This document shows positions 51,340 through 64,000 of a DNA stretch of 64,000 bases, piece after piece; position 1 is the stretch's first letter, and the number at the start of each line of letters is the position of its first letter. The position numbers were made by a program, and so were the translations under genes. The stretch is from Oscillibacter ruminantium GH1 (GTDB lineage: Bacteria; Bacillota; Clostridia; Oscillospirales; Oscillospiraceae): the NCBI RefSeq assembly GCF_000307265.1, contig NZ_DF158896.1:878860-942859 (forward strand), written 5' to 3'. Under the pieces are notes generated by a model. It was not told the DNA's origin and searched no databases. It saw only the letters and a list, made by a program, of their open reading frames with translations.

Positions 51340-51777
51340 TTATCGGATATTGTACAGGGAGGACATGGCGAGATACAGCTGGGAGAAGGGACGCATAACG
51401 TTCCAGATACCTGCGCCCTGAAAGCCGTATTCCTGAATAAGCCGGAGACGGGCGGAGAGACTGCGGGCGTCGTCAAACCAGACCTCGTGGACCGTGCCGC
51501 CGGGGTCGGCATAGTGGAAAAAGGGGGCCTGAGCCGTTTCATCGTACTGAATGGCGACCTCGTGCTCAATGGCCAGCTCAATGGCCCGCTGGTTGGAGAT
51601 GGATTGTGCTTTTGTCTCGCCCTCCATAAAGGGGAGGGGCCAGTCGTAGCCATAATTGGAAAGACCCAGAAAAATCTTTGCGGCGGGAATCTCGGTGATG
51701 GCATAATCCAGCACTTCCCGGACTTGAGGAAGGGGTGACACAGGGCCGGGAGGCCCATAGGTATATCCCCCGTGTTG
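51340..51777 (-). pseudogene. GH18 (YaaH-like spore hydrolase) gene, 3' part only, cut by the integrated element
   Basis: The minus strand keeps about 145 codons of the C-terminal half of a glycoside hydrolase 18 domain. Segments are GGYTYGPPGPVSPLPQV, VLDYAITEIPAAKIFLGLSNYGYDW, HEVWFDDARSLSARL and GFQGAGIWNVMRPF, all typical of YaaH/SleL-type spore cortex glycosidases. Upstream of GGYTYGPP the frame meets the stop codon of the recombinase (51778-51780), so the catalytic half is missing. The 5' part should lie at the far end of the element, outside the window. Excision would restore the gene. Confidence 0.88.
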
Positions 51778-51780
51778 TTA
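51760..51780. other. Attachment junction (attL/attR) of the integrated element
   Basis: Sequence homologous to the GH18 gene ends within about 51763-51777 and the recombinase stop codon is at 51778-51780. The crossover must lie near GGGGATATACC on the minus strand, inside the codons for the conserved GGYTYGPP motif. The exact core cannot be fixed without the other junction. Confidence 0.7.
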
Positions 51781-53361
51781 TAGGTGACTTTTGGGGCCGA
51801 CAATCTTTGGGAAGACGTATAGCCGCATATCGCTTTCTTGATAGCGCCCACCCACTGTCTTGCTGTATATTGCGTGATCCAGCACAGTTCGTAACAGTGC
51901 ATTCTTTTCGTCGGGCGAATCCAGTGCAGGGTATAGCTCCAGCACATGCTTGATTCTTGGAACCATGGACTTGCGGGTGTTTTCCGCTTCTCTGATTGCA
52001 GATAGATGGGCGGACAGTGCTTTTATATTAGCTTCCGCTTCTGCTGTACGTCCTGCTAAAACGCGCGAGCGTTCCAAAAATACTTCCTGCGTATAAGTGC
52101 CTTGTTCCAACAAATCGTACAGGCTGCCTTTCTGCTTTTGCAGTGCGGCCAGATCCCGATTGGCTTTGGCAAGGTTGCGTTCTGCGGCCTTGATTCCCGA
52201 ATCATCGGTATTTGATGGTTCGGGGAGTTGTATGCGATAGCCACGCAACCAGTCTTGCAGACAGCCAAGCAAGGTCGATTCCACAACCGACCGAAGACTG
52301 CTAACAGTCGGACATTTTGCCGTTGGACAAATTAGCATAGGGGATTTTCCTTTTTTGTGAATCTGCACCATAGATCGCCCGCATGTGGAACAATAGACCA
52401 ACCCGGCCAGCGGATTTGTAAGTTGTTTATTATTTGGCACAGGCGCGTGGCTGCGGCTGGATATAACCGATCTGGCAGCTGCCCAAGTATCTTCGGAGAT
52501 AATGGGTGGATGTACCCCCTTGCGCAGCGGCATGTCCTGATTGACGGGCGCTGTAATAACAACCTTGCCGTCTACCATTTGTTTTTTTACTGGGCGATAA
52601 GACCAGCGGAGATACCCGGCATAGGTTGGGTTTTTAATAATGTCCCGAACGGCGGTGGCCGTCCACTTGATTCCGCCGGGTGATAAGACGCCACGGGCAT
52701 TCAGCAAATTAGCTATCCCGGTGCTGCCTATTGGCTCCGTGGTTCCGTCTGGTTGGGGATCTCCGACCGTATAAAGCCTAAAGATTTCATGGACGGTTTC
52801 CGCTTGCGTTGGGTCTATCTCCAGCGTATAACCGCGCTGATGCGGTATTTTGACCTTGCAATAGCCATAGGGTGCTGTACCGGCAATATATTTCCCTTCG
52901 TTTAACGATGCCATGCGGCCGCGCTGGAGACGGCGGTTGATGGCCTTATATTCTCGGCGGGACATAAACAGGCCAAACTCAAAATACTCCTCGTCAGCCT
53001 CGTCGGATGGGTCGTAAATTTTATCCGGTGTGATTATTTTCGTTTCTGAATATTGAAAGGTTTCTGCCACCGTTCCTTGATCTCGGGTGTTGCCTCTGGC
53101 CAGACGCGGGACCTCCATCACCAACACTCCGGCATACTCTCCCGTTTCCACAGCAGCCAGAAGTTTTTGCATCTCTGGCCTCTCTGCAATTGTATCGCCG
53201 CTGACGACCTCCTCGAAGATATAGGCTATTGTATAGCCATGCTGCTTTGCAAGGGCTAGCAGCGCGTCTCTGTGGCGCTGGAGCGTATCAAAATTACCGG
53301 TTTGCAGTTCCTTGTCCTGATCCTGTCGCGACTTACGGAGATAGATTAGATATTGATCCAT
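51778..53361 (-). CDS. Large serine recombinase (element integrase)
   Basis: 527 residues. The N-terminal resolvase domain has the catalytic serine in YLRKSRQDQ (residue 11) and RLARGNTRDQG. The recombinase domain follows (about 160-270, PYGYCKVKI, GIANLLNARGV, TYAGYLRW), then a zinc ribbon (CSTCGRSM near 318, CPTAKCPT) and a coiled coil (about 385-470). It catalyses integration and excision between attP and attB. Its stop codon touches the cut GH18 gene, as expected for the integrase at the end of its element. ATG 53361 follows AGGAGG. Confidence 0.94.
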   Translation of the reverse strand: MDQYLIYLRKSRQDQDKELQTGNFDTLQRHRDALLALAKQHGYTIAYIFEEVVSGDTIAERPEMQKLLAAVETGEYAGVLVMEVPRLARGNTRDQGTVAETFQYSETKIITPDKIYDPSDEADEEYFEFGLFMSRREYKAINRRLQRGRMASLNEGKYIAGTAPYGYCKVKIPHQRGYTLEIDPTQAETVHEIFRLYTVGDPQPDGTTEPIGSTGIANLLNARGVLSPGGIKWTATAVRDIIKNPTYAGYLRWSYRPVKKQMVDGKVVITAPVNQDMPLRKGVHPPIISEDTWAAARSVISSRSHAPVPNNKQLTNPLAGLVYCSTCGRSMVQIHKKGKSPMLICPTAKCPTVSSLRSVVESTLLGCLQDWLRGYRIQLPEPSNTDDSGIKAAERNLAKANRDLAALQKQKGSLYDLLEQGTYTQEVFLERSRVLAGRTAEAEANIKALSAHLSAIREAENTRKSMVPRIKHVLELYPALDSPDEKNALLRTVLDHAIYSKTVGGRYQESDMRLYVFPKIVGPKSHL

Positions 53362-53377
53362 GGGGCCTCCTATGGTT

Positions 53378-53404
53378 AGCGCCGCCCGGAAGGGCGGCGC
53401 TTTT
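53378..53404 (+). terminator. GC hairpin between lipoprotein and integrase genes
   Basis: 10-bp stem AGCGCCGCCC/GGGCGGCGCT with GGAA loop. TTTT follows only on the plus strand, so leftward transcripts of the lipoprotein gene may run through it into the integrase gene. Confidence 0.6.
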
Positions 53405-53406
53405 GG

Positions 53407-54249
53407 TTACTGTTGAAAACTTAGATCAAACGTGTAGTCTTGCACATCTTCGTCCCAGTCAGCTGAGCTCGCTTCCATAATCAACTGGAATGCACTTGCT
53501 TCAATCGCAGGGAAAGTAATAACGCCCTCTGTTGTTATGCCAGGGCGCAGATCAGTCTGAATTTCTGGGTAGTCTGCATCATAATTTGCCACGTAGTCGT
53601 ACTGCTTCCCATTTTGCAGAATTATTGCATTGAACGAATAGAGGCTGAATGTGTCCTTTCCGTTGTTTGTAATAGAAATATAAGCTCTGGTTTCCTTGTC
53701 GGCAAGCTCAACTTTCTGGACAGTTACAGAATACCCAAATTGATCCTGTGTGGGAACACCGGCTGTTGCTACGCTCTGTGTCGGAGCTATAGCGTCTTGG
53801 TAAGACGTTTTAGTGACAGAGGTTGCTTGAATAGCGGGAGCGATAATTTTTCCGCCTACCATGTTCTCGCCTTCAAACGTACCTGCTACTTTACCACAAA
53901 TCTGAACATAATCATTTGCACTTAGGTCGAAACTCGGATCACCATATGACACGACCGTATTTAAATCGGATCTAGCAGGATCACCCCACATTTGAAAATA
54001 TATCGCGTCTCCTTCATACTCTACTGTGCCAAAAACTTGACCGGTAATTTCTACGTATGAACCCTCAAAACTTTCTGGACTCGAATACATCTGCTTAATC
54101 TCTGAGGCAGTTAAAGGCACTGCTCCAGTAGATGTATTTTCTGCGGATAGAGTGCTGGAGGAATGGGACTCGGAGTCAGGGGTAGATCCGCATGCAACCA
54201 TAGTTGCGGCCAATAGCAATGCCAGTACAAGAGACATTAGCTTTTTCAT
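53407..54249 (-). CDS. Lipoprotein with OB-fold-like and DUF4352-like domains (cargo)
   Basis: 280 residues. A lipoprotein signal peptide (MKKLMSLVLALLLAATMVAC, lipid-accepting Cys at 20) is followed by a Ser/Thr-rich linker. Next is an OB-fold tRNA_anti-like domain (about 50-140, SFEGSYVEITGQVFG, DYVQICGKVAG) and a C-terminal DUF4352-like immunoglobulin domain (about 170-275, FGYSVTVQKVELADKETRAYISITNNG). Function unknown; it sits on the outer face of the membrane. A 17-bp palindrome (54263-54279) lies just upstream of its GAGGAGG ribosome site. Confidence 0.8.
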   Translation of the reverse strand: MKKLMSLVLALLLAATMVACGSTPDSESHSSSTLSAENTSTGAVPLTASEIKQMYSSPESFEGSYVEITGQVFGTVEYEGDAIYFQMWGDPARSDLNTVVSYGDPSFDLSANDYVQICGKVAGTFEGENMVGGKIIAPAIQATSVTKTSYQDAIAPTQSVATAGVPTQDQFGYSVTVQKVELADKETRAYISITNNGKDTFSLYSFNAIILQNGKQYDYVANYDADYPEIQTDLRPGITTEGVITFPAIEASAFQLIMEASSADWDEDVQDYTFDLSFQQ

Positions 54250-54262
54250 CTTTTCCTCCTCG

Positions 54263-54279
54263 GTGCCCAAATCGGACAC
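54263..54279. repeat. 17-bp palindromic repeat, copy 1
   Basis: GTGCCCAAATCGGACAC, consensus GTGYCCRAWTYGGRCAC. It lies directly upstream of the ribosome site of the minus-strand lipoprotein gene. Confidence 0.75.
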
Positions 54280-54281
54280 TC

Positions 54282-55199
54282 TTATTTTGAAATCCCAGCC
54301 ATATTGTCATCTACTGCGTCCCAAAAGTCGGTTTCGTTAACAATCAGGACTGACTCGCCGGCCTTGCGCAGTCTCACAGCTTCTTCAATTTTTCTTCCAT
54401 AACAGGCATAGGCCCAGCACGGATTACCTGCATTTCCGACTATCAAATAATTAGTCTTAGCTGTGACAGCAGATTTTACAATGCCACCCAAACTTTGTAC
54501 CGCCGTAGCCATTTCAGCCCGCTTTGCCCGGTAAGATTCTCCCGTAAAACAAAAAGTTCTATCTTCAAATTCAATGTCTGGACAAAATGCACAGATTCCT
54601 GACACAGTATATTTTTCCCTTAGGTTTGAAAAGTCAGCCTCGGAAAGATTATAGGATGATGTGAAGTCAATGACGTTTCCAAAAAACGCCATCAATTCTT
54701 CGCGCTCTTCAGTCGTAATCTTTTTGTCGGCAAGCACAGTATGCAATAGGCTGTTGATCTCATCGAAAGGATAGGTTCCAGCCAGAAACTCATTGGCATC
54801 TACCCAAGACTTTAGCGTAGAAATTTCTTTATCCCCTAAATCACCGTCGGCCATAATGCCGTGGATCATACCGGAAAGGAATTGAATGGATGAAGTAACC
54901 TCGTTGTAGTAGGAACTGTTGTCGGCAAAATTATTACACAACCACAGGATATCCTTGGATTCATCTTCGGTGATTACACCGTCAGCACACGCAGCTTCAA
55001 CCACCGGGAGCAACTCAGAAAATGGGTGCCGATCATTCAAGTGCGTATGTAATTCGCACCAGTTGATTAATTCTGTGATTTCCTTACTGCCTATTTCAGT
55101 ATCGGAATTAATCCCTGCAACAAGGCCACGCAAAGTATTGACGGCCTTGTGCAATTCGGCGGGCTTTGTGAATTTGCGATATTCTTCAAGTTCTTTCAT
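54282..55199 (-). CDS. BRCT-domain protein with N-terminal TerB-like helical region (cargo)
   Basis: 305 residues. The first 200 are helical with two related segments (AGINSDTEIGSKEITELINWC and GIMADGDLGDKEISTLKSWV, each followed by DGVITEDE- or DKKITTEE-like turns), resembling a duplicated TerB-type fold. The C-terminal 85 form a BRCT domain (FCFTGESYRAKRAEM, VQSLGGIVKSAVTAKTNYLIVG) as in NAD-dependent DNA ligase. It may recognise DNA ends or nicks; its phage role is unknown. A copy of the 17-bp palindrome (55215-55231) precedes it. ATG 55199 follows GGGAGG. Confidence 0.78.
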   Translation of the reverse strand: MKELEEYRKFTKPAELHKAVNTLRGLVAGINSDTEIGSKEITELINWCELHTHLNDRHPFSELLPVVEAACADGVITEDESKDILWLCNNFADNSSYYNEVTSSIQFLSGMIHGIMADGDLGDKEISTLKSWVDANEFLAGTYPFDEINSLLHTVLADKKITTEEREELMAFFGNVIDFTSSYNLSEADFSNLREKYTVSGICAFCPDIEFEDRTFCFTGESYRAKRAEMATAVQSLGGIVKSAVTAKTNYLIVGNAGNPCWAYACYGRKIEEAVRLRKAGESVLIVNETDFWDAVDDNMAGISK

Positions 55200-55214
55200 A
55201 ACCCATCCTCCCGT

Positions 55215-55231
55215 GTGCCCAATTCGGGCAC
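55215..55231. repeat. 17-bp palindromic repeat, copy 2
   Basis: GTGCCCAATTCGGGCAC, upstream of the ribosome site of the BRCT gene; the arms extend one base to TGTGCCC/GGGCACA. Confidence 0.78.
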
Positions 55232-55260
55232 ATTTATTTATTTCGCCGCCCGGCGATAGA

Positions 55261-55695
55261 TCAAAAAAATAAATCTGCCGCAAGATTTCCATGGGTATAC
55301 CAGCAGACGGCCTTGCGCATAAAGTCCTCGGTTACTCCGAAATGCTCTGCCAACGACCAGATATCGGTCCGGCCATCAGCAATGGCATCATCCAGTTCGT
55401 CCACGGGGACAAGGCGGTTGATGGCCCACTTGTCGGCCTGATGCTCGTGCTTTTGGCGGACATCCAACGCCGCCTCCTCGCAGTAAAAGCTGCCGGTTTC
55501 GCAGTGCCCCAGCTCATGGGCTAAACATACCTTCTCTTGTTGGATAGTCGACATCTTCCACGGGTCGACTGCAATGCTGTACGACCCGTCATCCAGCGGA
55601 ACAGACAGCGACGCAGAACGCTGCATCGGAAACCAGTCTACGCCAATGTCCCGCTGCTCCGCAAACTTGTATAAGTCAACGGGATCATTTGTCAT
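55261..55695 (-). CDS. ImmA/IrrE-family metallopeptidase
   Basis: 144 residues with the zinc protease motif HELGH (about 77-81) and a downstream EHQADKWA helix holding the third ligand. In mobile elements such as ICEBs1, ImmA cleaves the ImmR repressor to induce the element. Its start overlaps the 3' end of the repressor gene by 11 bases, the same layout. ATG 55695 follows GGAGGAAGCAGAAAC. Confidence 0.9.
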   Translation of the reverse strand: MTNDPVDLYKFAEQRDIGVDWFPMQRSASLSVPLDDGSYSIAVDPWKMSTIQQEKVCLAHELGHCETGSFYCEEAALDVRQKHEHQADKWAINRLVPVDELDDAIADGRTDIWSLAEHFGVTEDFMRKAVCWYTHGNLAADLFF

Positions 55696-56068
55696 GTTTC
55701 TGCTTCCTCCGCTGCTCCAGCTTGTACTGCATGTAAGACCGGGCATCATCCCAAAGCATATCCATTTCTTCTTTGCTCAGGTCTTCGGCACCCTCAAAAA
55801 ACGCCGCCCGGATATGCTCCGGTTTGACTGCGCCCGCTCCGGCTTTGGAGGTGGTCGCTTTTTTATCTGATTCATTACCGTACAAAAGATATTGCGGTGT
55901 AGTGTTTAATTCTTCTGAAATTATCTCCAATCGTTTCACATAACTAGCTGACTTACGCCGTCTCCACTCACTCACTACTGATGCTGTTACCCCAATTTTT
56001 GCAGCAAATTCACGCTGCTCCTGATACTTCTCATCTACAAGTTCAAAGATGCGGTCAACTATATCCAA
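55685..56068 (-). CDS. XRE-family repressor (ImmR/CI-like)
   Basis: 127 residues. The N-terminal helix-turn-helix is QREFAAKIGVTASVVSEWRRRK (split here as QREFAAKIGV and TASVVSEWRRRK); the C-terminal half is helical and charged, without a self-cleaving LexA-type domain, so inactivation by the neighbouring ImmA protease is likely. I favour TTG at 56068 because GAGGTGAT lies just before it; GTG at 56077 would overlap that site. It faces the lytic-side gene at 56289 across an operator region. Confidence 0.8.
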   Translation of the reverse strand: MDIVDRIFELVDEKYQEQREFAAKIGVTASVVSEWRRRKSASYVKRLEIISEELNTTPQYLLYGNESDKKATTSKAGAGAVKPEHIRAAFFEGAEDLSKEEMDMLWDDARSYMQYKLEQRRKQKHDK

Positions 56069-56145
56069 ATTAATCACCTCAATTTAAACAAAATGCAAAG
56101 AACAAAATTAGGTAAGTTTAACAAAAAACGTAAGTTCGGGAATTC

Positions 56146-56178
56146 ACGATTGACAATCGTAAAAATTACGATTATATT
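56146..56178 (+). promoter_or_regulatory. Immunity-switch promoter and operators
   Basis: TTGACA (56150-56155) and TATATT (56173-56178), spacer 17. Two overlapping palindromes, ACGATTG-A-CAATCGT (56146-56160) and AATCGTAA-AAA-TTACGATT (56155-56173), cover it and share ACGATT half sites. The XRE repressor probably binds here. Confidence 0.75.
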
Positions 56179-56288
56179 ATAGCTACAAGTTAACAAGCCT
56201 CAAGTTACTGTGAGCGGTGCAAAAGTAACTATAAGGCAATATTACCACAAGGAAACAAATGTTTCAAGACATACAGAAAGGAGAAATT

Positions 56289-56486
56289 ATGAACCGAGTA
56301 AAGGAATTGCGCATTGCCGCAAAAATGACACAGGCAGACCTCGCGAAACAGCTTGATATCACAACGCCCAGCATCACGAAATGGGAGCAGGGCCGCTCGA
56401 ACCCGGAGCTTGCCAATGCATTCAAGTTGGCTGACATCTTTGGCGTTACGCTTGATTACCTGCTGGGTCGCAGCGCCAGTGCGTGA
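56289..56486 (+). CDS. Cro-like XRE-family regulator
   Basis: 65 residues that are almost only a helix-turn-helix domain: KELRIAAKMTQADLAKQLD, then TTPSITKWEQGRSNPE and LADIFGVTLDYLLGR. It is divergent from the ImmR-like repressor and first in the rightward operon, the position of Cro. ATG 56289 follows AAAGGAGAAATT. Confidence 0.87.
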   Translation: MNRVKELRIAAKMTQADLAKQLDITTPSITKWEQGRSNPELANAFKLADIFGVTLDYLLGRSASA

Positions 56487-56538
56487 GGCTCGGCGGCCTA
56501 TGAGACCAGTATATCCCAGCGATAGGAGGAAGACCACG

Positions 56539-57000
56539 ATGGAAAATAGCGTGCTGCCTTATGGACCGTCCCGAAAGTTAGCGGGTTATACGCAGGAACG
56601 TGCAGCAGAAAAACTGGGCATCTCATGCCGATGCCTGTGTGACTATGAGACGGGAGTCCGACCTGTCCCAAACCAGATCGCCGACCTGATGGTTATTGCA
56701 TACAATGACCAAATGCTGGCTGTGCAACACCTGCGGATCTCAGCCCCGGCGGTCAACGACATACTTCCGGATTTTAGACCAGGTCTGCCATTTGGGCAGA
56801 CAACCCTAAGATATTACCGGTTGATGCATGATTTTATAACCAACTACGATAAGGCCGCGCTGCTGATGCTGATAGCCGAGGATGGTATGGTAGACAAGCA
56901 GGAGTCCCAAGCGTATGAAAAGATCCGGCTCCAAATGCGCGAGATCACGGCGGCCGGGCTGGAAGTTGAATACTCGGATAATAGTGGAAACCACGCATAG
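56539..57000 (+). CDS. Helix-turn-helix phage protein
   Basis: 153 residues. The N terminus resembles an XRE helix-turn-helix (GYTQERAAEKLGISCRCLCDYETGVRPVP), with the rest helical (LRYYRLMHDFITNYDKAALLMLIAEDG). Related small proteins occur in the early operon of clostridial prophages; the role is not known. ATG 56539 follows AGGAGGAAGACCACG. A 19-bp inverted repeat (56783-56801) lies inside the gene. Confidence 0.75.
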   Translation: MENSVLPYGPSRKLAGYTQERAAEKLGISCRCLCDYETGVRPVPNQIADLMVIAYNDQMLAVQHLRISAPAVNDILPDFRPGLPFGQTTLRYYRLMHDFITNYDKAALLMLIAEDGMVDKQESQAYEKIRLQMREITAAGLEVEYSDNSGNHA

Positions 57001-57040
57001 ACCAGTCTTTTTTTTAGTACATTGCGGTGAGGTGATGATT

Positions 57041-57241
57041 ATGGCAATGCTGGGTACGTTCCCCTTTGTCCCCAATATGGACGACTGCAAAATGGTGGTA
57101 CAAGCCGACGGGGCTGTCTGCTACATAATGGATACCTGCTGCCGCAATATGACTCCAGAGGTTAAGGCACAAGCTGATCAGGAGATCGTTGACATCTATA
57201 TGAGGTCGGCGATGCGCCGGAAAATGAAAGGCTCTGCCTAA
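57041..57241 (+). CDS. Unrecognised 66-residue phage protein
   Basis: 66 codons from ATG 57041 behind GAGGTGATGATT. The protein has a cysteine-containing middle (CYIMDTCCRNM) and a basic end (RSAMRRKMKGSA). No family recognised. Its stop lies in a GGCTCTGC/GCAGAGCC hairpin (57230-57249) without a T run. Confidence 0.62.
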   Translation: MAMLGTFPFVPNMDDCKMVVQADGAVCYIMDTCCRNMTPEVKAQADQEIVDIYMRSAMRRKMKGSA

Positions 57242-57249
57242 GCAGAGCC
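57230..57249 (+). other. Hairpin at gene end
   Basis: 8-bp stem GGCTCTGC/GCAGAGCC, loop CTAA, overlapping the stop codon at 57239-57241; likely an mRNA processing or stability element. Confidence 0.4.
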
Positions 57250-57275
57250 GATGGACAAGCATAGAGAGGAGCGGC

Positions 57276-57428
57276 ATGAAAAAGTACAAAAGAAGACCGC
57301 CCATGGTTGCACCCATGAGCGGTCCGGTTCAGGGCCTCACGACCGAGAACGATTACAAAATTATTATATCACAACCGGTCGAAAATGCAAGCCCTGTTTT
57401 CTGCGGAAGGAGGTGTGACCTCCCGTGA
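57276..57428 (+). CDS. Unrecognised 50-residue phage ORF
   Basis: 50 codons from ATG 57276 behind GAGAGGAGCGG: a basic start (MKKYKRRPP), proline/glycine-rich middle and cysteine near the end. It contains an imperfect inverted repeat at 57295-57324, so the region may also work as RNA structure. The stop overlaps the next GTG start. Confidence 0.5.
   Translation: MKKYKRRPPMVAPMSGPVQGLTTENDYKIIISQPVENASPVFCGRRCDLP
57295..57324 (+). repeat. Inverted repeat within small ORF
   Basis: Arms GACCGC + CATGG (57295-57306) and CCATG + GCGGTC (57313-57324), each arm interrupted by one unpaired base. Confidence 0.5.
57409..57423 (+). promoter_or_regulatory. Hairpin masking the ribosome site of the 36-codon ORF
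   Basis: GGAGGT-GTG-ACCTCC is a perfect hairpin containing the only Shine-Dalgarno-like sequence before GTG 57425. Translation of the upstream ORF would open it, giving coupling. Confidence 0.4.
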
Positions 57429-57535
57429 GTGGATGGACGCTTGCATTTGTTGCGATCGGTGTTGCGTGGTGCGTTGGGCAGCTGTTTCGGCTGCTGGACG
57501 CGATCGAGAGAAAGGGGATGCGGAAGGATGCCTGA
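57425..57535 (+). CDS. Small single-span membrane protein
   Basis: 36 codons from GTG 57425: a hydrophobic helix (WTLAFVAIGVAWCVGQLF) and a charged tail (DAIERKGMRKDA). The start overlaps the preceding stop (GTGA) and the stop overlaps the next gene, as in compact phage operons. Family unknown. Confidence 0.5.
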   Translation: MSGWTLAFVAIGVAWCVGQLFRLLDAIERKGMRKDA

Positions 57536-57737
57536 AATTACGGAAAAGCACCTGAAAGATATGGCGGACGACTGGAATGCGGAGACTAACGATCCGGATA
57601 CGGAGGAGTGGCGTGAGGATCTGACACCGGAGGAGGCGCGAATCGTCAGAGACTGGGACAATGGCTACGCCATCGGGATGCATAATCTTTGCCGGGATAT
57701 CATGGCGCTTTATCAGGAGGGTGAGCACCATGGCTGA
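57528..57737 (+). CDS. Unrecognised 69-residue acidic phage protein
   Basis: 69 codons from ATG 57528 after GCGGAAGG. Strongly acidic helical protein (DMADDWNAETNDPDTEEW, LTPEEARIVRDWD) ending CRDIMALYQEGEHHG. It overlaps the next gene by eight bases. Function unknown. Confidence 0.65.
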   Translation: MPEITEKHLKDMADDWNAETNDPDTEEWREDLTPEEARIVRDWDNGYAIGMHNLCRDIMALYQEGEHHG

Positions 57738-58491
57738 GAGTATTATCCGTGGAAAACGCCAGGGCTTTACGGTCCTATACAATTCCGTGCTGATGGACAA
57801 TCGGCTGGACCTGAAGACCAAGGGTCTGTTTGCCATTGTACAGTCCTTCCCGGAGGACTGGGAATACAGTGTCAGCGGACTGGCTGCACGGGTCGGAATC
57901 GGGCGCGACAGTATCCGTGGATGCCTACGTCAGCTGGAGGATGCAGGCTATCTTCTGCGAGAGCAGCCGCACGGTGCACACGGTCATTTTGCAAGGACAA
58001 CGTTCGTTTTTCAAGAGCAAGCACCGGGCCAAAAGTCACCGTTGACTGAAAAGCCGTCAACGGTAAAACCGTCAACGGCTGAACCGTCGCCGGTGAATCC
58101 GACACAAGTAAATAAACACTTAAGTAAAGAAACAAAAGAGAAAGCCCCCATACCCCCGGCGCGTGAGTTTGTAAAGGACCTACCGCCAGATATATGCCGA
58201 CGTATTCTGGAGTATTCCCCAAATGACACGGGACTGCAACAGGCCATCCTCGACCTGTTGGAGAATCGGAGTGTTGCAAACAAGAAACCTGTCAAGACCA
58301 TGCGGGCCATGGATGGGATTCTCCGGGATCTGGACAAGCATTCGGGCGGCCAGCGTGATCTAAAACTCCGGCTGTTGGATAAGGCTATCAAGTGCAACTG
58401 GCTTACCGTTTACAAACTGAAGCCTGACGAAATGCCGCTGACAACCCCGGTATCCGACGGCAGCGAGGAGGGTGAGATTGATGGAATTTAA
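57730..58491 (+). CDS. Helix-turn-helix replication protein (phage replisome organizer type)
   Basis: 253 residues. The N-terminal winged helix (FTVLYNSVLMDNRLDLKTKG, then YSVSGLAARVGIGRDSIRGCL) is followed by a Pro/Thr/Lys linker with repeated KPSTV units (about 100-130) and a helical C-terminal domain (about 145-230). This is the usual layout of phage initiation proteins encoded just before the helicase. It probably binds the element origin and loads the downstream DnaB-like helicase. Confidence 0.8.
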   Translation: MAESIIRGKRQGFTVLYNSVLMDNRLDLKTKGLFAIVQSFPEDWEYSVSGLAARVGIGRDSIRGCLRQLEDAGYLLREQPHGAHGHFARTTFVFQEQAPGQKSPLTEKPSTVKPSTAEPSPVNPTQVNKHLSKETKEKAPIPPAREFVKDLPPDICRRILEYSPNDTGLQQAILDLLENRSVANKKPVKTMRAMDGILRDLDKHSGGQRDLKLRLLDKAIKCNWLTVYKLKPDEMPLTTPVSDGSEEGEIDGI

Positions 58492-59833
58492 CAAAGCCAT
58501 GGAGATTGCAGGCCGATATCTTGGGTTTGCCCCCCACGATATGGACCCAACCGCCCCACAGGGCCTTTGGATTTGCGATAATCTTGTGACCAGTTCTACC
58601 ATTCACGCCAACGCTGTGTGCATGGGTACTGGCTGCGACTGGGACGATATCGTCAAGTGTCAACCGTTTTTTGCGCATTTCCCGTACATCGTAATTGTCG
58701 CACCAAATGCCATTGCCCGCGAGGAAATGGTCAAGGAACTTCACCCGCGCCTTTCCGGTTCCTGCGTTTACGTCGCCACAGATGCGGGGTTTCGTGGTTG
58801 CACATCCATGGTGGACTACGTCAAGCGCTACGGCGATCAGAAAATCGTAGAAATTCTGGAGGGTTCGCTGGAGTTGCCTGCCTACGGCCTAGTTCGGCTG
58901 GCAGATGTCCAGCGTCGGGACCTTTCCAATGTTCCCCGTACACTGTCGGGCTTTAAGCGGCTGGATCAGGGCATTGGTGGATTTTTTGCCGGGGAATTAT
59001 CCGTCTGGACTGGCGTAAACGGCTCCGGAAAGAGCACGATCCTAAGCCAAATTTTGCTGGAAAGCATGAACCAGGGGCATACAGTGTGTGCCTACTCCGG
59101 GGAACTTCCTAAGGAACAGTTCAAAGAATGGACACTGTTGCAGGCGGCTGGCCCGGATCATGTTAGATATGAAACCGATAAAGTGACGGGTAAGCGAATT
59201 GCTATTCCAGACCCCATTGCCAATAAACAAATTGACGAGTGGCTTGGTGATCGGTACTGGCTGTTTGACCTTGAAAAAAACACAACCCACAGCCCCGAAA
59301 CCATCATCCGGCAATTTGAGGCTGCCAGAATGCAATACGGCGCAGATGTGTTTCTGGTGGATAACATCATGATGGTGGACTTTGATGGCGTGCGGGAAAA
59401 GGATTTTTACCGGGAGCAATCACGCTTTATGCGCACGCTGATCACCTTCGCGAAGCGCCGTAAAGTCCATGTGCATCTTGTAGTCCATCCCAAAAAAGAT
59501 GGAGCAGATGGAAATGGTGTGTTGACAAAGGCTGACGTTGGCGGCTCCGGTGACATAACAAACCGACCGGATAACGTGTTTGCCATGAGCATCCGTTCCC
59601 GCGACGTTGACGGGAAGTTGGAGCAGCGTCCGTATCTTTCAATCTTAAAGAACCGTGACTTCGGAGCTAAGGGCGAGGTCTGGCTGGATTTTGATAAAAA
59701 ATCACGACGCTTTTACCAGAATAGAACCGGAAGTCCGGATAAGCGATTCGGGTGGGACCCAGCCGGTCAGCAACTAACGTTGGAGGATGCGACCCCGGAG
59801 ATTAACGAGGTATTCCCGGAGGCCCACGGATGA
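58481..59833 (+). CDS. DnaB-like replicative helicase (RecA-type ATPase)
   Basis: 450 residues. The N-terminal 150 resemble a Toprim-containing primase remnant. The C-terminal RecA-like domain has Walker A TGVNGSGKST (about 178-187), a YSGELPKEQF segment, Walker B VFLVDNIMMVD (about 290-300), and HLVVHPKK and GGSGDITNRPDN motifs as in Twinkle/T7 gp4-type helicases. It starts at ATG 58481, overlapping the previous gene by 11 bases. Confidence 0.87.
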   Translation: MEFNKAMEIAGRYLGFAPHDMDPTAPQGLWICDNLVTSSTIHANAVCMGTGCDWDDIVKCQPFFAHFPYIVIVAPNAIAREEMVKELHPRLSGSCVYVATDAGFRGCTSMVDYVKRYGDQKIVEILEGSLELPAYGLVRLADVQRRDLSNVPRTLSGFKRLDQGIGGFFAGELSVWTGVNGSGKSTILSQILLESMNQGHTVCAYSGELPKEQFKEWTLLQAAGPDHVRYETDKVTGKRIAIPDPIANKQIDEWLGDRYWLFDLEKNTTHSPETIIRQFEAARMQYGADVFLVDNIMMVDFDGVREKDFYREQSRFMRTLITFAKRRKVHVHLVVHPKKDGADGNGVLTKADVGGSGDITNRPDNVFAMSIRSRDVDGKLEQRPYLSILKNRDFGAKGEVWLDFDKKSRRFYQNRTGSPDKRFGWDPAGQQLTLEDATPEINEVFPEAHG

Positions 59834-60045
59834 AAGTTGGAGACACCCTGCGCATTATCCCCACGTTTGACACCACCTACGGCATGCCGGACGATAATGT
59901 CCCACTGCCAGCCGTGGTCGTGTACATCCATCCGCAGCAGCGGTACTACCGCGTGCGGTATACAGCAGCCAACGGGGAAAGCTGGACGGAGACGTTTTCC
60001 TGCAACCCCTGCGAGCTGGACAGGAGAGGACGGAAGAACAAATGA
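59830..60045 (+). CDS. Unrecognised 71-residue phage protein
   Basis: 71 codons overlapping the helicase stop by four bases (ATGA). A beta-rich small protein (VGDTLRIIPTFDTTY, PAVVVYIHPQQRYYRVRY) ending CNPCELDRRGRKNK. It looks like a small SH3/Tudor-like barrel; the family is not recognised. Confidence 0.65.
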   Translation: MKVGDTLRIIPTFDTTYGMPDDNVPLPAVVVYIHPQQRYYRVRYTAANGESWTETFSCNPCELDRRGRKNK

Positions 60046-60839
60046 GAACGATTGCAATTTTTAATCTCAAGGGCGGTGTGGGCAAGACCATGACCACCGC
60101 TGCCATGGCCGATTGCCTTGCCGCCGATCACGGAAAGCGTGTCCTGCTGATCGACGCAGACGCACAGGGCAACCTGAGCCAGTATTTTGGAGCGGAGGCG
60201 GAGGACGGAAGCGACCTGCTGGCGCTCCTGCAAGGCGAAAACGAGCATTACTACCCGGATTTTGTGACACCTGCCCGGAAAGGCATCGACATCATTCCAG
60301 CAGGCATGAGCCTGATGTACGCGGACGTGGACGCCATTAAGGACGGTCGCTGCAATATCAACGCCATCGAGGACTTGCGTGGAGCCATTGCGGAGGATGC
60401 AGCTCGTGGAGAGTCGGGCGCGTATGATTACATTCTGATCGACTGCCCCCCCGCATTCAGCGCCGCCAGCTCCGCAGCCTTGACTGCTGCGGACGCAGTG
60501 ATTATCCCCATCCGGCTGGATGCCTTCTCCACTTCCGGCATGGCGGAGCTGATCACGCAGGTCAGCGCCATGCGCCGCATCAATGAGCGGCTGTGTGTTG
60601 CGGGGGTGCTGGCAACGCAGTACCAGCGGACACCAGAAGAAGATTTGGCATTCAACCTTCTGCGGAAAAATACCGTGCTGCCTATTTGCACCAGCAAAAT
60701 CCGGCAGTCGTCAAGAGTAAGCGCCGCCACCTTTGCATGCGAGTCGTTGCTGTCGTTTAGCCCGCACTGCGGAGCGGCAAAGGACTATCGTAAGTTCGTG
60801 CAAGAGTTTTTAGACAGGGAGGGACCAATCAATGGCTAA
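60042..60839 (+). CDS. parA: ParA-family partition ATPase
   Basis: 265 residues. Deviant Walker A KGGVGKTMTT (about 10-19), DADAQGNLS (about 39-47), and DCPPAFSAASSAAL (about 133-146) identify a ParA/Soj-type ATPase. It overlaps the upstream gene by four bases and parB by eight. Partition genes are expected on plasmids and plasmid-prophages, so this element may spend time as a free replicon. Confidence 0.93.
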   Translation: MRTIAIFNLKGGVGKTMTTAAMADCLAADHGKRVLLIDADAQGNLSQYFGAEAEDGSDLLALLQGENEHYYPDFVTPARKGIDIIPAGMSLMYADVDAIKDGRCNINAIEDLRGAIAEDAARGESGAYDYILIDCPPAFSAASSAALTAADAVIIPIRLDAFSTSGMAELITQVSAMRRINERLCVAGVLATQYQRTPEEDLAFNLLRKNTVLPICTSKIRQSSRVSAATFACESLLSFSPHCGAAKDYRKFVQEFLDREGPING

Positions 60840-62376
60840 GAAGACTGTGGACATTGCCGCCATGCTGGGCAAGCAGTTTGCAGATGTGCCCGAATTGGAC
60901 ACATCTGGTCGGGAACAGATCCGGTACATCGACATCGATCTGATCGACGACGACCCCAACAACTTTTACGCGCTGGACTGCTTGGATGAGCTAGCGGCCA
61001 ACATCGAGCTGTGCGGCTTGCAGCAGCCGATCCGGGTCCGCGCCGGGGAGAGTGGGCACTATACCATCGTCTCCGGGCACCGCCGTCGGGCGGCTCTGCG
61101 CAAGCTGGTGGAGGACGGTCAGTCAAAGTACCGGGAAGTTCCATGCATCGAGGAGCGGGACAACGTTTCTCCTGCAATGCAGAAAATGCGTTTGATCCTT
61201 GCCAATATGGACACGCGCAAAATGTCAAGCGCGGATATCGCCCAACAGCAAATTGAACTTGAAAAAATTGCGCTTGAACTTGAATCTGAGGGTTATGAAA
61301 TTAAAGGCCGAAAACGGGACTGGTTCTCTGAGATTTTAGGCGTATCCAAGAGCAAACTTGCCCGAATTAATGTGATCCGAAAAAAACTGATCCCCCTGTG
61401 GGCGAAACAGTATGACAAAAACAAGATTTCCGAGGACATGGCCTACGAGCTGGCCAAGCTGCCGGAAGACCACCAGCTGAAGTTGCAAATGTTGCAGGAC
61501 GGCAAGTATGGCTGCTATGCCAGCACAATCAAAGAGTACGCTCCGGCATTGGCGTCGCTGGATGCCATTAAATGCCCAAATGGCGAGCAGTGCTGCACCA
61601 ACGCCGATAATATGTGGTCGCGGATGCTAAAGCGTGATTATTGCACCAAACACTGTGATGGTCGCTATGGACGCAAAGCACAGTGCTGCAAGGGCTGCCC
61701 GGAGCTGTCGAAATGCAAATACGCCTGCCCCGCGTTTGCAGACGAGATTGCGAAAGAAAAGGCAGAAGCCAAGGCTGAGAGGCAAGAGGAAAAGGCAGCA
61801 AAAGAGGCTGCGGAGAAGGCACACATTGCTAGTGTCGCTGCAAGCTGGGCGCGCGTTGGCGCAGCTCGTAAGGCGGCAAAACTGAAAATGAATGATTTTA
61901 TCAGGGGCATCTATGAACCCAATAAACCGGAATCGGCCTCTTATAGCGATTGGCGCGAAAAAGAATGGGCGAATCGTGAAAAGGGCGAGGGGATCACGCT
62001 AAGTGATCGGTGCTTTGGCGCAGATATCCTGAACAACGATGAACTTATCCGCGCGGCAGACATTCTTGGTTGCTCGCTTGACTACCTGTTGGGCCGTGTG
62101 GATGACCCGCAGCCCTTTACCGGCGAGTGGAAGTCCGCGCTGGAGGAGCGACCGGACGAGGGACGGTTTTTGTTTGTGTGCGATGGCTGTGGATGCGTGC
62201 AGCCGTCGGTATTTTGGCAGGGTGACTACATGGATGCAACGCCCCAGAGCGTCGCAAATAATCGGCTGAAAAACGTCGAATTGTGGATGTACCAGCCCGC
62301 TCTGCCGGACGGCATGAAGCACATGGGGCAGGAAACGCTGAATCAAATCATGAAGGATCGAGGTATGGACGTATGA
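60832..62376 (+). CDS. parB: ParB-like DNA-binding protein with zinc-finger-like insert
   Basis: 514 residues. The ParB nuclease-like fold has NFYALDCLDELAANIELCGLQQPIRV and VSGHRRRAAL (the GHRR box, about 82-88), followed by a helix-turn-helix (about 160-190, WFSEILGVSKSKLARINVI). After it comes a cysteine-rich region (CPNGEQCC, CTKHCDGRYGRKAQCCKGCPE; about 244-300), a Lys/Glu coiled coil and an XRE-like/C-terminal region. This is longer than usual ParB. A copy of the 17-bp palindrome (60886-60902) lies near its 5' end. Confidence 0.85.
   Translation: MAKKTVDIAAMLGKQFADVPELDTSGREQIRYIDIDLIDDDPNNFYALDCLDELAANIELCGLQQPIRVRAGESGHYTIVSGHRRRAALRKLVEDGQSKYREVPCIEERDNVSPAMQKMRLILANMDTRKMSSADIAQQQIELEKIALELESEGYEIKGRKRDWFSEILGVSKSKLARINVIRKKLIPLWAKQYDKNKISEDMAYELAKLPEDHQLKLQMLQDGKYGCYASTIKEYAPALASLDAIKCPNGEQCCTNADNMWSRMLKRDYCTKHCDGRYGRKAQCCKGCPELSKCKYACPAFADEIAKEKAEAKAERQEEKAAKEAAEKAHIASVAASWARVGAARKAAKLKMNDFIRGIYEPNKPESASYSDWREKEWANREKGEGITLSDRCFGADILNNDELIRAADILGCSLDYLLGRVDDPQPFTGEWKSALEERPDEGRFLFVCDGCGCVQPSVFWQGDYMDATPQSVANNRLKNVELWMYQPALPDGMKHMGQETLNQIMKDRGMDV
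60886..60902. repeat. 17-bp palindromic repeat, copy 3 (inside parB)
   Basis: GTGCCCGAATTGGACAC. The outer bases CAGAT (60881-60885) and ATCTG (60903-60907) extend the inverted repeat to 27 bases. Confidence 0.82.
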
Positions 62377-62603
62377 GCATGGAGCAGTATGAAGCAAAAC
62401 GGCAGTTTGTGACGCGGGAGCTGTCCCGCTGCATCTGCGCAGCGTATGGCGGTGTGAGCCGTCTGGAGTATGAGTATCACGAGGACGACGAGGAGGCCGT
62501 GATTATCCGCTTTGACAACGGCTATCACAAGACGGTCAGCGTCAGCGGCGACAGCCGGAGCGGCATCATGACGGACGTGATGATCGCTTTGTCGGGGGTG
62601 TAA
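62373..62603 (+). CDS. Unrecognised 76-residue phage protein
   Basis: 76 codons overlapping the parB stop (ATGA). An N-terminal helix (EQYEAKRQFVTRELSRCI) is followed by beta strands with acidic turns (YEYHEDDEEAVIIRFDNG). No family recognised; conserved position after parB suggests a small accessory protein. Confidence 0.62.
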   Translation: MSMEQYEAKRQFVTRELSRCICAAYGGVSRLEYEYHEDDEEAVIIRFDNGYHKTVSVSGDSRSGIMTDVMIALSGV

Positions 62604-62604
62604 C

Positions 62605-62832
62605 ATGGCACGGTGTACATGGGATGATGGACGCGGAAACTGGGGCGTCAAGGGCGTGGAGCTGGCGCAGCTCTCGCCCAATGCCTACGGTGCCCTATAT
62701 AAGCTACATAACATTGAACGGATGGCGGAGGCTGTCCATGCGCAGCGCGATCCGGAGCACGCTTCCTATCTGCTGATGGACCTCCTGGAGGAACTTGGCC
62801 TGCATGGAGAGGTGCCGCATGCCGAAGCCTAA
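62605..62832 (+). CDS. Unrecognised 75-residue phage protein
   Basis: 75 codons from ATG 62605 behind TCGGGGGTG, one base after the previous stop. A helical, soluble protein (LAQLSPNAYGALYKLHNIERMAEAV) with acidic C terminus. Overlaps the next gene by 14 bases. Function unknown. Confidence 0.6.
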   Translation: MARCTWDDGRGNWGVKGVELAQLSPNAYGALYKLHNIERMAEAVHAQRDPEHASYLLMDLLEELGLHGEVPHAEA

Positions 62833-63061
62833 ACCAAACTGCGGAGCTTGCCAAAAGCGCTACCCCGGATGCCACAACCCGGAAACCTGCAAGGATTGGC
62901 GAGATTATATTGCTGCAAAGGCAGAGTGGGACGCCAGAGTAAAAGCCACACGCGGTGTGGAAGGCATGATGTATGGTTACAAGGCTGGAATTTTGCGGGA
63001 ATATACACGCGATAAAAAGCGAAAAGGGAGATGCCAAGATTGCTCAACAAAATTATCCTGA
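62819..63061 (+). CDS. Cysteine-rich small phage protein (zinc-ribbon-like)
   Basis: 80 codons from ATG 62819 behind GGAGAGGTG. The N terminus has CGACQKRYPGCHNPETC (about 8-24) and the C terminus CQDC, six cysteines and a histidine that could form a zinc site. The middle is a basic helix. It overlaps ssb by 31 bases. Function unknown. Confidence 0.65.
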   Translation: MPKPKPNCGACQKRYPGCHNPETCKDWRDYIAAKAEWDARVKATRGVEGMMYGYKAGILREYTRDKKRKGRCQDCSTKLS

Positions 63062-63453
63062 TGGGTCGCCTGACGCGGGACCCGGATCTGCGCCGCACCG
63101 GAAGCGGCAATGCCGTGACATCCTTTTGCTTGGCCGTTGACCGGGACTTCAAGTCCCAGAGCGGCGAAAAGGAAACGGATTTCATTGATATTGTCGCATG
63201 GCGTACTACTGCGGAGTTTGTTAGCAAGTATTTCTCAAAGGGCCGCATGGCCGTGGTGGAAGGCCGCTTGCAGATCCGGGACTGGACCGACAAAGAGGGC
63301 GGAAAACGCCGCTCTGCGGAGGTCGTGGCCGACAACGTGTATTTTGGAGACTCCAAGCGCGATGTGTCCAATTCGGGCACATCTGCTCCATCTCCGGTGG
63401 ATGCCCACTGTGAGCTGGCGGAAGACGAGGAGCCGGGCGAATTACCGTTTTGA
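63031..63453 (+). CDS. ssb: Single-stranded DNA-binding protein
   Basis: 140 residues. The OB fold shows LNKIILMGRLTRDPDLRRTGSG, FCLAVDRDF, FIDIVAWRTTAEFVSKYFSKG and VEGRLQIRDWTDKEG. The C-terminal tail is acidic and ends ELPF, the tip that contacts replication proteins. It belongs to the element replication module. A copy of the 17-bp palindrome (63364-63380) is in the codons of the flexible linker. ATG 63031 follows AAAAGGGAG. Confidence 0.93.
   Translation: MPRLLNKIILMGRLTRDPDLRRTGSGNAVTSFCLAVDRDFKSQSGEKETDFIDIVAWRTTAEFVSKYFSKGRMAVVEGRLQIRDWTDKEGGKRRSAEVVADNVYFGDSKRDVSNSGTSAPSPVDAHCELAEDEEPGELPF
63364..63380. repeat. 17-bp palindromic repeat, copy 4 (inside ssb)
   Basis: GTGTCCAATTCGGGCAC, flanked by GAT and ATC. 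It is the exact reverse complement of copy 3 over 25 bases. Confidence 0.82.
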
Positions 63454-63466
63454 GGGAGGCATGACG

Positions 63467-63976
63467 ATGGAAAATGAAAAGCTGATTGCGGCAATGCGGT
63501 ATTGCAATGCCGTTGTCAATGACACGGAAAATACGGGGCGTTGCAATTTCTGCCCGTACAGAGATCATTGCAGCGATTTGGACAATGAAGCCGCCGACGC
63601 GTTGGAACGCCTGACCGCCGAAAGCGCCGAAAAAGACGCGGAAATTGGGCGGCTGACAAACTTGGCACAGGATGCTCAAAAACAATGGAAAGCCGAGTAT
63701 GCGATGCGCCGTAAGTTTGAGGCCGACCGTGACCGTCTGCAAGCGGAGCTGGATGCGGCGGTGGAGGATTTAAACGGAACCGGAGCGTGTTTTACCTGTA
63801 AGCACTTCCGACGGAATGGCGGGGATTGCTTTGGCGCGGGCAGGTGCCGCTTAGACGGCATTGAAATATGGCCCTGCAACGAACCGGGGGTTTATCGGGT
63901 GGAAGTGCCTGATGACGGGCGAAAGATGTACGAATGGCGCGGCCCACAGGAAGCCGGGAATGGAGTGGTGGAATGA
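63467..63976 (+). CDS. Coiled-coil phage protein with cysteine clusters
   Basis: 169 residues from ATG 63467, seven bases after GGGAGG; the ATG at 63461 is too close to that site. An N-terminal CNFCPYRDHC set (about 26-35) is followed by a long coiled coil (about 43-100) and a C-terminal CFTCKHF...CFGAGRC...C set (about 106-135). The two cysteine groups look like zinc knuckles. No function recognised. Confidence 0.72.
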   Translation: MENEKLIAAMRYCNAVVNDTENTGRCNFCPYRDHCSDLDNEAADALERLTAESAEKDAEIGRLTNLAQDAQKQWKAEYAMRRKFEADRDRLQAELDAAVEDLNGTGACFTCKHFRRNGGDCFGAGRCRLDGIEIWPCNEPGVYRVEVPDDGRKMYEWRGPQEAGNGVVE

Positions 63977-64000
63977 AGAAGCTAGTAGTCGCCGGTATTA
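63973..64000 (+). CDS. Start of next phage gene, cut by the window edge
   Basis: Nine codons (MKKLVVAGI) from ATG 63973, overlapping the previous stop (ATGA). Too short to identify. Confidence 0.5.

Follow-up and report, generated by a model that had tools for sequence, protein, structure and literature searches.

A contractile-tailed prophage splits the spore hydrolase gene sleL of Oscillibacter ruminantium GH1 at a hotspot shared with relatives in other families

Among the mobile elements described in sporulation genes, two come closest to the locus reported here. The skin element lies in sigK of B. subtilis and C. difficile and, like the present element, is a serine-recombinase element in a sporulation gene. 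According to the accessible part of PMC5025042, the C. difficile skin has a small directionality factor of 72 aa under sigE/SpoIIID control, while its recombinase is not so controlled; the counterpart here is a candidate predicted from the DNA. The skin target is a sigma factor, whereas the target here is a lytic enzyme gene, and, unlike skin, the elements at this locus range from a prophage down to 4 kb and carry far-apart recombinases at one spot. SPbeta, a prophage in the spore-envelope gene spsM of B. subtilis, is similar in being a prophage in such a gene, and its excision restores spsM during sporulation (PMC4191935, accessible part). It differs in gene and recombinase, and for the present element excision is a prediction.

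Further elements occupy other sporulation genes: gin in gerE, vfbin in spoVFB, vrin in spoVR and yin in yabG. In the accessible parts of PMC5595907, PMC10747680 and PMC4191935, the interrupted genes named are sigK, spsM, spoVFB, spoVR, gerE and yabG, and no pair of tandem insertions flanking a 17-bp piece of the gene is described; the word 'yaaH' is absent from the main texts of all three. Among open-access articles judged by title and start of abstract, none was found to present sleL/yaaH or cotJC as the target of an intervening element. A survey of large serine recombinase (LSR) hotspots describes, as here, many diverse LSRs on one conserved coding site, and the targets in the accessible main text are a magnesium chelatase/protease gene, a prolyl isomerase and competence genes, with no spore gene among them (PMC10083194). 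The intervening elements named in the literature accessible to us are a handful from Bacillus, Geobacillus and clostridia. In the present case a single spore gene is cut at one spot, by elements far apart from one another, in at least 24 genomes of four families.

The window, the whole 64,000-nt stretch of O. ruminantium GH1 that was analysed, lies on contig C1 of its genome (G000; C1, C3 and C7 are its contigs). On the minus strand, 51340-51765 matches Pfam GH18 at positions 207-314 (E 7e-9), the C-terminal third of the GH18 protein, and shares 81% identity with an intact orthologue from a congener (G085, residues 283-423). The fragment reads ...L*QHGGYTYGPP..., its frame is open back to the recombinase stop TAA at 51778-51780, and this frame turns into sleL at the YTYGPP codons. 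A preliminary description of the locus had reported a GH18 frame open only to the recombinase stop and starting at the GGYTYGPP codons, and this observation is confirmed. It had also pointed to a second junction and a 5' GH18 half as the evidence to look for; both were found, on contig C3 beside a phage endolysin gene. The features of the split gene are as follows.

51340..51765, minus strand: sleL/yaaH-like 3' part (GH18 C-terminal part, without its own start codon), from Pfam, orthologue alignment and translation
51757..51770, minus strand: attL core GGGGATATACCTAT, one of only two genome matches
51748..51795, minus strand: attL with phage arm CTATAACAACAC, from the junction sequence
C3:1117-1995, minus strand: sleL 5' part, 292 aa open, from the whole-genome GH18 search
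C3:1138-1151: partner core GGGGATATACATAT, the other of only two genome matches
C3:2-877: phage endolysin (PHROG match), adjoining the sleL 5' part

The break falls at residues 283-284 in orthologue numbering. Both junctions carry GGGGATATAC(C/A)TAT, and the core GGGGATATACMTAT has exactly two matches in the genome, in which some small-contig sequence is masked; these two are the junctions. The phage arm at the other end is CATGTTGTTATATG; it pairs with the attL arm as an inverted repeat centred on AC, the repeated arms being TATAACAACA and TGTTGTTATA (by eye). A short direct repeat is thus present at both junctions, and excision would restore the frame: as follows from the junctions, attL x attR recombination would rebuild sleL exactly, in frame. 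No attB or attP junction of the excised form was found in the G000 assembly, and one narrow pattern for excised attP had no match in viral contigs. The sleL 3' part and the recombinase share one reading frame with the recombinase stop codon between them (51765-51780), and the same arrangement occurs in G039, G082, G234 and G009.

The interrupted gene is a sporulation gene. The intact G085 orthologue (425 aa), which both G000 halves match, aligns with the solved SleL/YaaH structures 4s3k (E 3.5e-87) and 4s3j (E 7e-82) over 416-420 residues. Its architecture is LysM-LysM-GH18, with the LysM repeats identified by eye and by weak matches to LysM proteins. The accessible part of PMC3533761 lists yaaH among spore coat genes and describes SleL (YaaH) as a widely conserved cortex-lytic enzyme. 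The element lies inside the coding sequence of a sleL/yaaH orthologue. The hydrolase would probably be inactive while the element is present, given that the last third of the GH18 protein is missing from the 5' fragment.

Between the halves lies a contractile-tailed prophage that adds up to about 36 kb and has the virion genes usual for such a phage, contig C7 being placed in it by gene content. Contig C1 ends 16.4 kb beyond the window, and its end and the start of C3, which lie in the right orientation, are most simply read as opposite ends of a single element. The region C1:930630-959256 encodes the recombinase, repressor, DnaB-like helicase, ParA, ParB, terminase, portal, head protease, capsid, tail sheath and tape measure; the 6.3-kb contig C7, with baseplate and tail genes, most likely fills the gap from the C1 end to the C3 start. 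PHROG matches to terminase, portal, capsid, sheath, tape measure, baseplate, endolysin, repressor and integrase identify a temperate contractile-tailed phage. Its genes in the window are as follows.

51771..64000, no strand assigned: prophage part in the window, continuing through C1 to its end (C1:959256), probably C7, then C3:1-1137
51778..53361, minus strand: large serine recombinase (integrase), 527 aa; Pfam PF00239, PF07508 and PF13408; PHROG 95 integrase, E 1e-101
53407..54279, minus strand: DUF4352-match protein upstream of the recombinase (Pfam)
54282..55292, minus strand: BRCT-domain prophage protein (Pfam)
55261..55749, minus strand: IrrE-like M78 peptidase of the prophage (Pfam)
55685..56077, minus strand: phage repressor-like HTH protein (Pfam; PHROG 8 and 4, regulators/repressors)
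58472..59833, plus strand: DnaB-like helicase of the prophage (Pfam, PHROG)
60042..60839, plus strand: ParA-like ATPase of the prophage (Pfam)
60832..62376, plus strand: ParB-like protein of the prophage (Pfam)

The recombinase has all three domains typical of the large serine family (Resolvase, Recombinase and zinc-ribbon), and the catalytic serine presumably lies in the YLRKSR motif. The prophage carries a ParA-/ParB-like pair (60042-62376), as do phage-plasmids. A serine-recombinase element within a spore-hydrolase gene, as originally proposed, is thus borne out by the recombinase domains and the SleL-type gene, and can now be specified as a prophage with virion genes. A scan of a genome-contig collection with the window recombinase gave four loci, two of them close (68-69% identity).

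The relatives were assessed with their genus taken as Dysosmobacter. The gene is split at the same few codons in at least 24 genomes of four families, 11 from Dysosmobacter and 13 others of the order. Within the genus, 86 genomes were searched, 77 gave some match, and 11 are split at the hotspot (G000, G082, G032, G081, G010, G029, G039, G041, G080, G009 and G035); G041 and G080 show the 5' side only, and a contig end truncates the 5' part of G009 and of G035. In a family sample of 400 genomes, 168 matched, and at least eight further splits occur among 25 genomes chosen from the matches listed (G216, G234, G418, G353, G162, G257, G190, and G443 with the 3' side only). An order sample of 295 genomes gave 84 matches (11 with a short open frame) and five further splits in other families (G724, G510 and G706; G721 and G627 with the 3' side only). 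Both parts end at the hotspot in 17 genomes (G000, G082, G032, G081, G010, G029, G039, G234, G216, G418, G353, G162, G257, G190, G724, G510 and G706), and both halves lie on a single contig in G082, G234, G216, G162, G257, G724, G510 and G706. IMG/VR proviruses also end at sleL (L253/L255, L254, L256, L257 and L258). Since the same codons are split in many relatives, the G000 split is not due to chance.

Two cut positions about 10 bp apart are used within this hotspot. The window's position, WGYT|YGPP, is used by the window's recombinase clade, G724 and G353. The second, in TATGA(A/G)TGG (MTYEW), is some 10 bp upstream of it and serves type B recombinases, which are about 25% identical to the window's (G162, G041, G081, G257, G032 and G190), as well as those of G510, G706 and G721, which are 38-41% identical to the window's. 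Type B cargo, assessed by eye, includes a replication-initiator-like gene at the junction in G032, G080 and G010 (ICE-like). In G082, the halves are 105 kb apart and enclose two tandem elements of 25 kb (with the window-type recombinase) and 80 kb, with a 17-bp gene piece, TATGAGTGGGGCTATAC, between them at C1:1699084 (minus strand). In G010 a similar 17-bp piece at C4:12310 adjoins a 40-kb element, and the second element extends past the end of the contig. The two junction types of G081 are those seen in these two tandem cases.

Several candidates were examined and not counted as splits. The breaks of G207 and G179 lie off the hotspot at residues 204-225, and the pieces of G620 overlap, also off the hotspot, at residues 199-206. 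In G027 the gene is cut by contig ends; in G315, G693, G656 and G603 the gene stops at a contig edge that coincides with the hotspot or is close to it; and G376 has a type-B-like 3' junction on a 3.0-kb contig.

The state of the split halves was quantified within the genus; the rest of the 11 split genomes were excluded because a part was truncated or absent or its start point ambiguous. Internal stops were absent from all seven 5' halves and all eight 3' halves tested. The pN/pS values were 0.09-0.24 for 3' halves (intact genes, 0.04-0.31) and 0.28-0.42 for 5' halves (intact, 0.05-0.39); all seven 5' halves lie above the intact median, and G029 (0.42) is just above the intact range. Open halves with low pN/pS would be explained either by recent insertion or by selection.

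Four relatives carry small sleL elements, of 3.9 kb (G706), 4.7 kb (G216), 5.6 kb (G724) and 6.4 kb (G234); since small elements are likelier to be assembled whole, their share is not a frequency. In all four the recombinase is open, and the gene halves are stop-free except for one stop at the very junction of G216. No virion genes were found among their ORFs (by eye, with PHROGs run on seven proteins of G216 and G234). G216 and G234 retain the recombinase, an endolysin, a small membrane-type protein (PHROG 20274) also encoded on G000 contig C7, and the candidate directionality factor described below. By eye, G724 carries transporter-like genes and G706 two lipoprotein-like genes.

An all-against-all comparison of the small elements with G000 identified a small protein common to G216, G234 and G000, which we regard as a candidate recombination directionality factor. 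Its features in the window are as follows.

56976..57003, plus strand: ATA-N15-CATA motif before the candidate factor (motif match only)
57041..57241, plus strand: candidate recombination directionality factor, 66 aa; start chosen by eye as the ATG with the best-placed ribosome site

A profile built from the G216, G234 and G000 proteins was run on 11,861 ORFs of 35-300 codons. The first pass gave nine hits including the three seeds, and these are exactly the window's sleL recombinase clade: G000, G234, G039, L254, G082, G010, G216, G443 and G418. The protein is 66-85 aa long depending on the start chosen. Three complete cotJC elements and two spoIVB elements, one of these covered only partially, gave no match, and neither did the more distant sleL elements G724, G706, G510 and G721, nor G353, nor those type B elements that were searched. 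L253, L207 and L064 gave weak hits (E 0.02-0.2), which may be distantly related proteins. Pfam and PHROG searches gave no match, and no known homologue was found. A model from a three-row alignment (mean pLDDT 70) has three strands and a long helix, and Foldseek against solved structures returned no match at E 0.001.

Upstream motifs were compared between the host gene and the element. CATA(G/T) stands close before sleL in 24/30 upstream regions of the genus (shuffled mean 1.8), CATAGG in 11/30, and ATA-N16-CATA in 12/30 (shuffled mean 0.12), the last test not being independent because the 16-base spacing was read from the alignment and tested on the same sequences. Three of the 30 regions belong to split genes (G000, G082 and G029). 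An earlier sigE pattern with 12-15 spacing matched just 2/30 of these regions (shuffled mean 0.39) and 0/7 recombinases. The host's own spoIVA has CATA-N16-CATAGAGT upstream. The motif upstream of sleL and spoIVA resembles the consensus of a sigE promoter.

In the 110 nt upstream of the conserved FPF-type codons of the candidate factors, CATAGG occurs in 6/9 cases, compared with 3/179 for other ORFs of the same elements, scored over the 110 nt ahead of their starts (Fisher 1e-7). This test is partly post hoc: the CATA motif was derived from the regions before sleL, but the CATAGG form and the wider spacing were picked once the regions before the small genes had been inspected. One of the three other carriers is the window's recombinase, and CATAGG precedes 1/9 recombinases overall. 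The looser CATA(GG|AG|GA) precedes 8/9 candidate factors, 12/179 other ORFs and 2/9 recombinases; the corresponding counts for ATA-N15..17-CATA are 3/9, 2/179 and 0/9, and no candidate factor (0/9) has the two-box motif with the host's N16 spacing. The SpoIIID consensus WWRRACARNY precedes 4/9 candidate factors compared with 0.27 for random windows. The candidate factor would be a close parallel to the C. difficile skin factor, a comparison resting on these motifs.

Related recombinases were found at other spore genes. Among at least 51 matches to the window recombinase, the best 29 with a locus (L038-L066) target sleL (5), cotJC (7), the last codons of spoIVB (8), an unnamed conserved gene (3) and others (6); targets were assigned by reading flanks, with Pfam/NCBIfam for five fragments and profile hits in genomes. 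In a quick tree, the spoIVB group (L051-L058, eight recombinases at the last codons of the gene) forms one clade (support 100) and 9/10 sleL rows fall together (96), with 9 changes of target label compared with 25.5 when labels are shuffled. The gene cotJC (Mn catalase family) is occupied by cousin recombinases at L042-L045, L047, L048, L050 and L246-L248, and its halves lie 2.7 kb (G446), 5.75 kb (G117), 8.3 kb (G416) and 32.7 kb (G434) apart. The window's own genome holds this second split spore gene as well: its cotJC (C3:324827-330593; L245) covers profile positions 1-32 and 28-198 in two parts about 5.2 kb apart, the 3' part adjoining a second, different serine recombinase (by eye).

Taken together, the sequence describes a temperate contractile-tailed phage integrated by a large serine recombinase at a fixed attB, the sleL codons WGYTYGPP. 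The reading we favour, at a probability of about 60%, is that of a skin-like element whose excision takes place in the mother cell during sporulation. Excision would occur there as with skin and SPbeta: the recombinase would be present beforehand, and the small phage protein at 57041-57241, made from a sporulation-type promoter, would flip integration to excision. The forespore genome would retain the element and nothing would be lost, because the mother cell dies. In some relatives the phage would have been cut down to a few genes including the recombinase and the small protein, and such reduction fits upkeep for the host gene's sake. A developmental switch for sleL is a hypothesis supported indirectly: the small elements keep the recombinase and the gene halves, the candidate factor is clade-wide, and its motif is shared with the sleL upstream region. 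The spoIVB cousins speak against it: spoIVB is a forespore gene, which does not suit a mother-cell switch.

Being a full-size prophage, the window element may be an ordinary lysogen, and sleL may simply be a safe, low-cost attachment site. Lysogens would then lack SleL and excision would follow phage induction only, the cost being low because, on this account's premise, sleL is silent in growing cells and the enzyme dispensable. This account, the chief alternative, is possible but less likely. It draws on the full-size prophage and ICE-like elements at the same site, the lack of a sleL match in some relatives (matches in 77/86 genomes of the genus and 168/400 of the family sample), the convergence of diverse LSRs on single coding sites of other genes in the accessible part of PMC10083194, and the spoIVB cousins, which touch only the last codons; yet the small elements retain recombinase and gene halves, the motif precedes the small protein, and related recombinases also lie in cotJC. 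A dead insertion, with gene and element decaying in a host without working spores, is very improbable: some genus members have GH18 paralogue matches only or none, in draft assemblies, but the tested halves are stop-free with low pN/pS, which led us to reject a decayed pseudogene, the recombinase is open, and spoIVA and spoIVB are present in the G000 genome. The G000 halves do lie on different contigs, as they would if unrelated contigs had been joined; however, the core repeat stands at both junctions, a separate viral contig has the recombinase beside the sleL 3' part, and eight genomes hold both halves on one contig, single-contig cases that refute an assembly artefact and leave it a negligible probability.

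Beyond the skin-like excision favoured above, a wider and more tentative proposal is that spore genes of the gut order to which Dysosmobacter belongs form a shared docking system for mobile DNA, with sub-groups of one LSR group on sleL, cotJC and spoIVB and a far-off group on sleL. A conserved small protein with a mother-cell promoter would license excision, sleL and cotJC of G000 would both be reassembled by DNA splicing during spore formation, and in some species two tandem elements would both have to leave for one gene to be rebuilt around the 17-bp piece. If excision is developmental, gut anaerobes would commonly time their spore genes by DNA splicing, and the candidate factor would offer a direct handle for testing this. 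The new recombinase/att pairs with fixed coding targets are useful as tools.

Three additional observations concern individual loci. Three more distant recombinases (L059, L060 and L066) lie at one conserved gene, encoding a YVDVEPV protein for which no Pfam match was found. A strong GC hairpin directly precedes the recombinase ribosome-binding site (window 53362-53406) in G000, G039 and G082, as judged by eye. The 9.7-kb type B element L130 of G162 carries, again by eye, a restriction-methylation-like enzyme, an AlbA-like protein and a RelE-like toxin.
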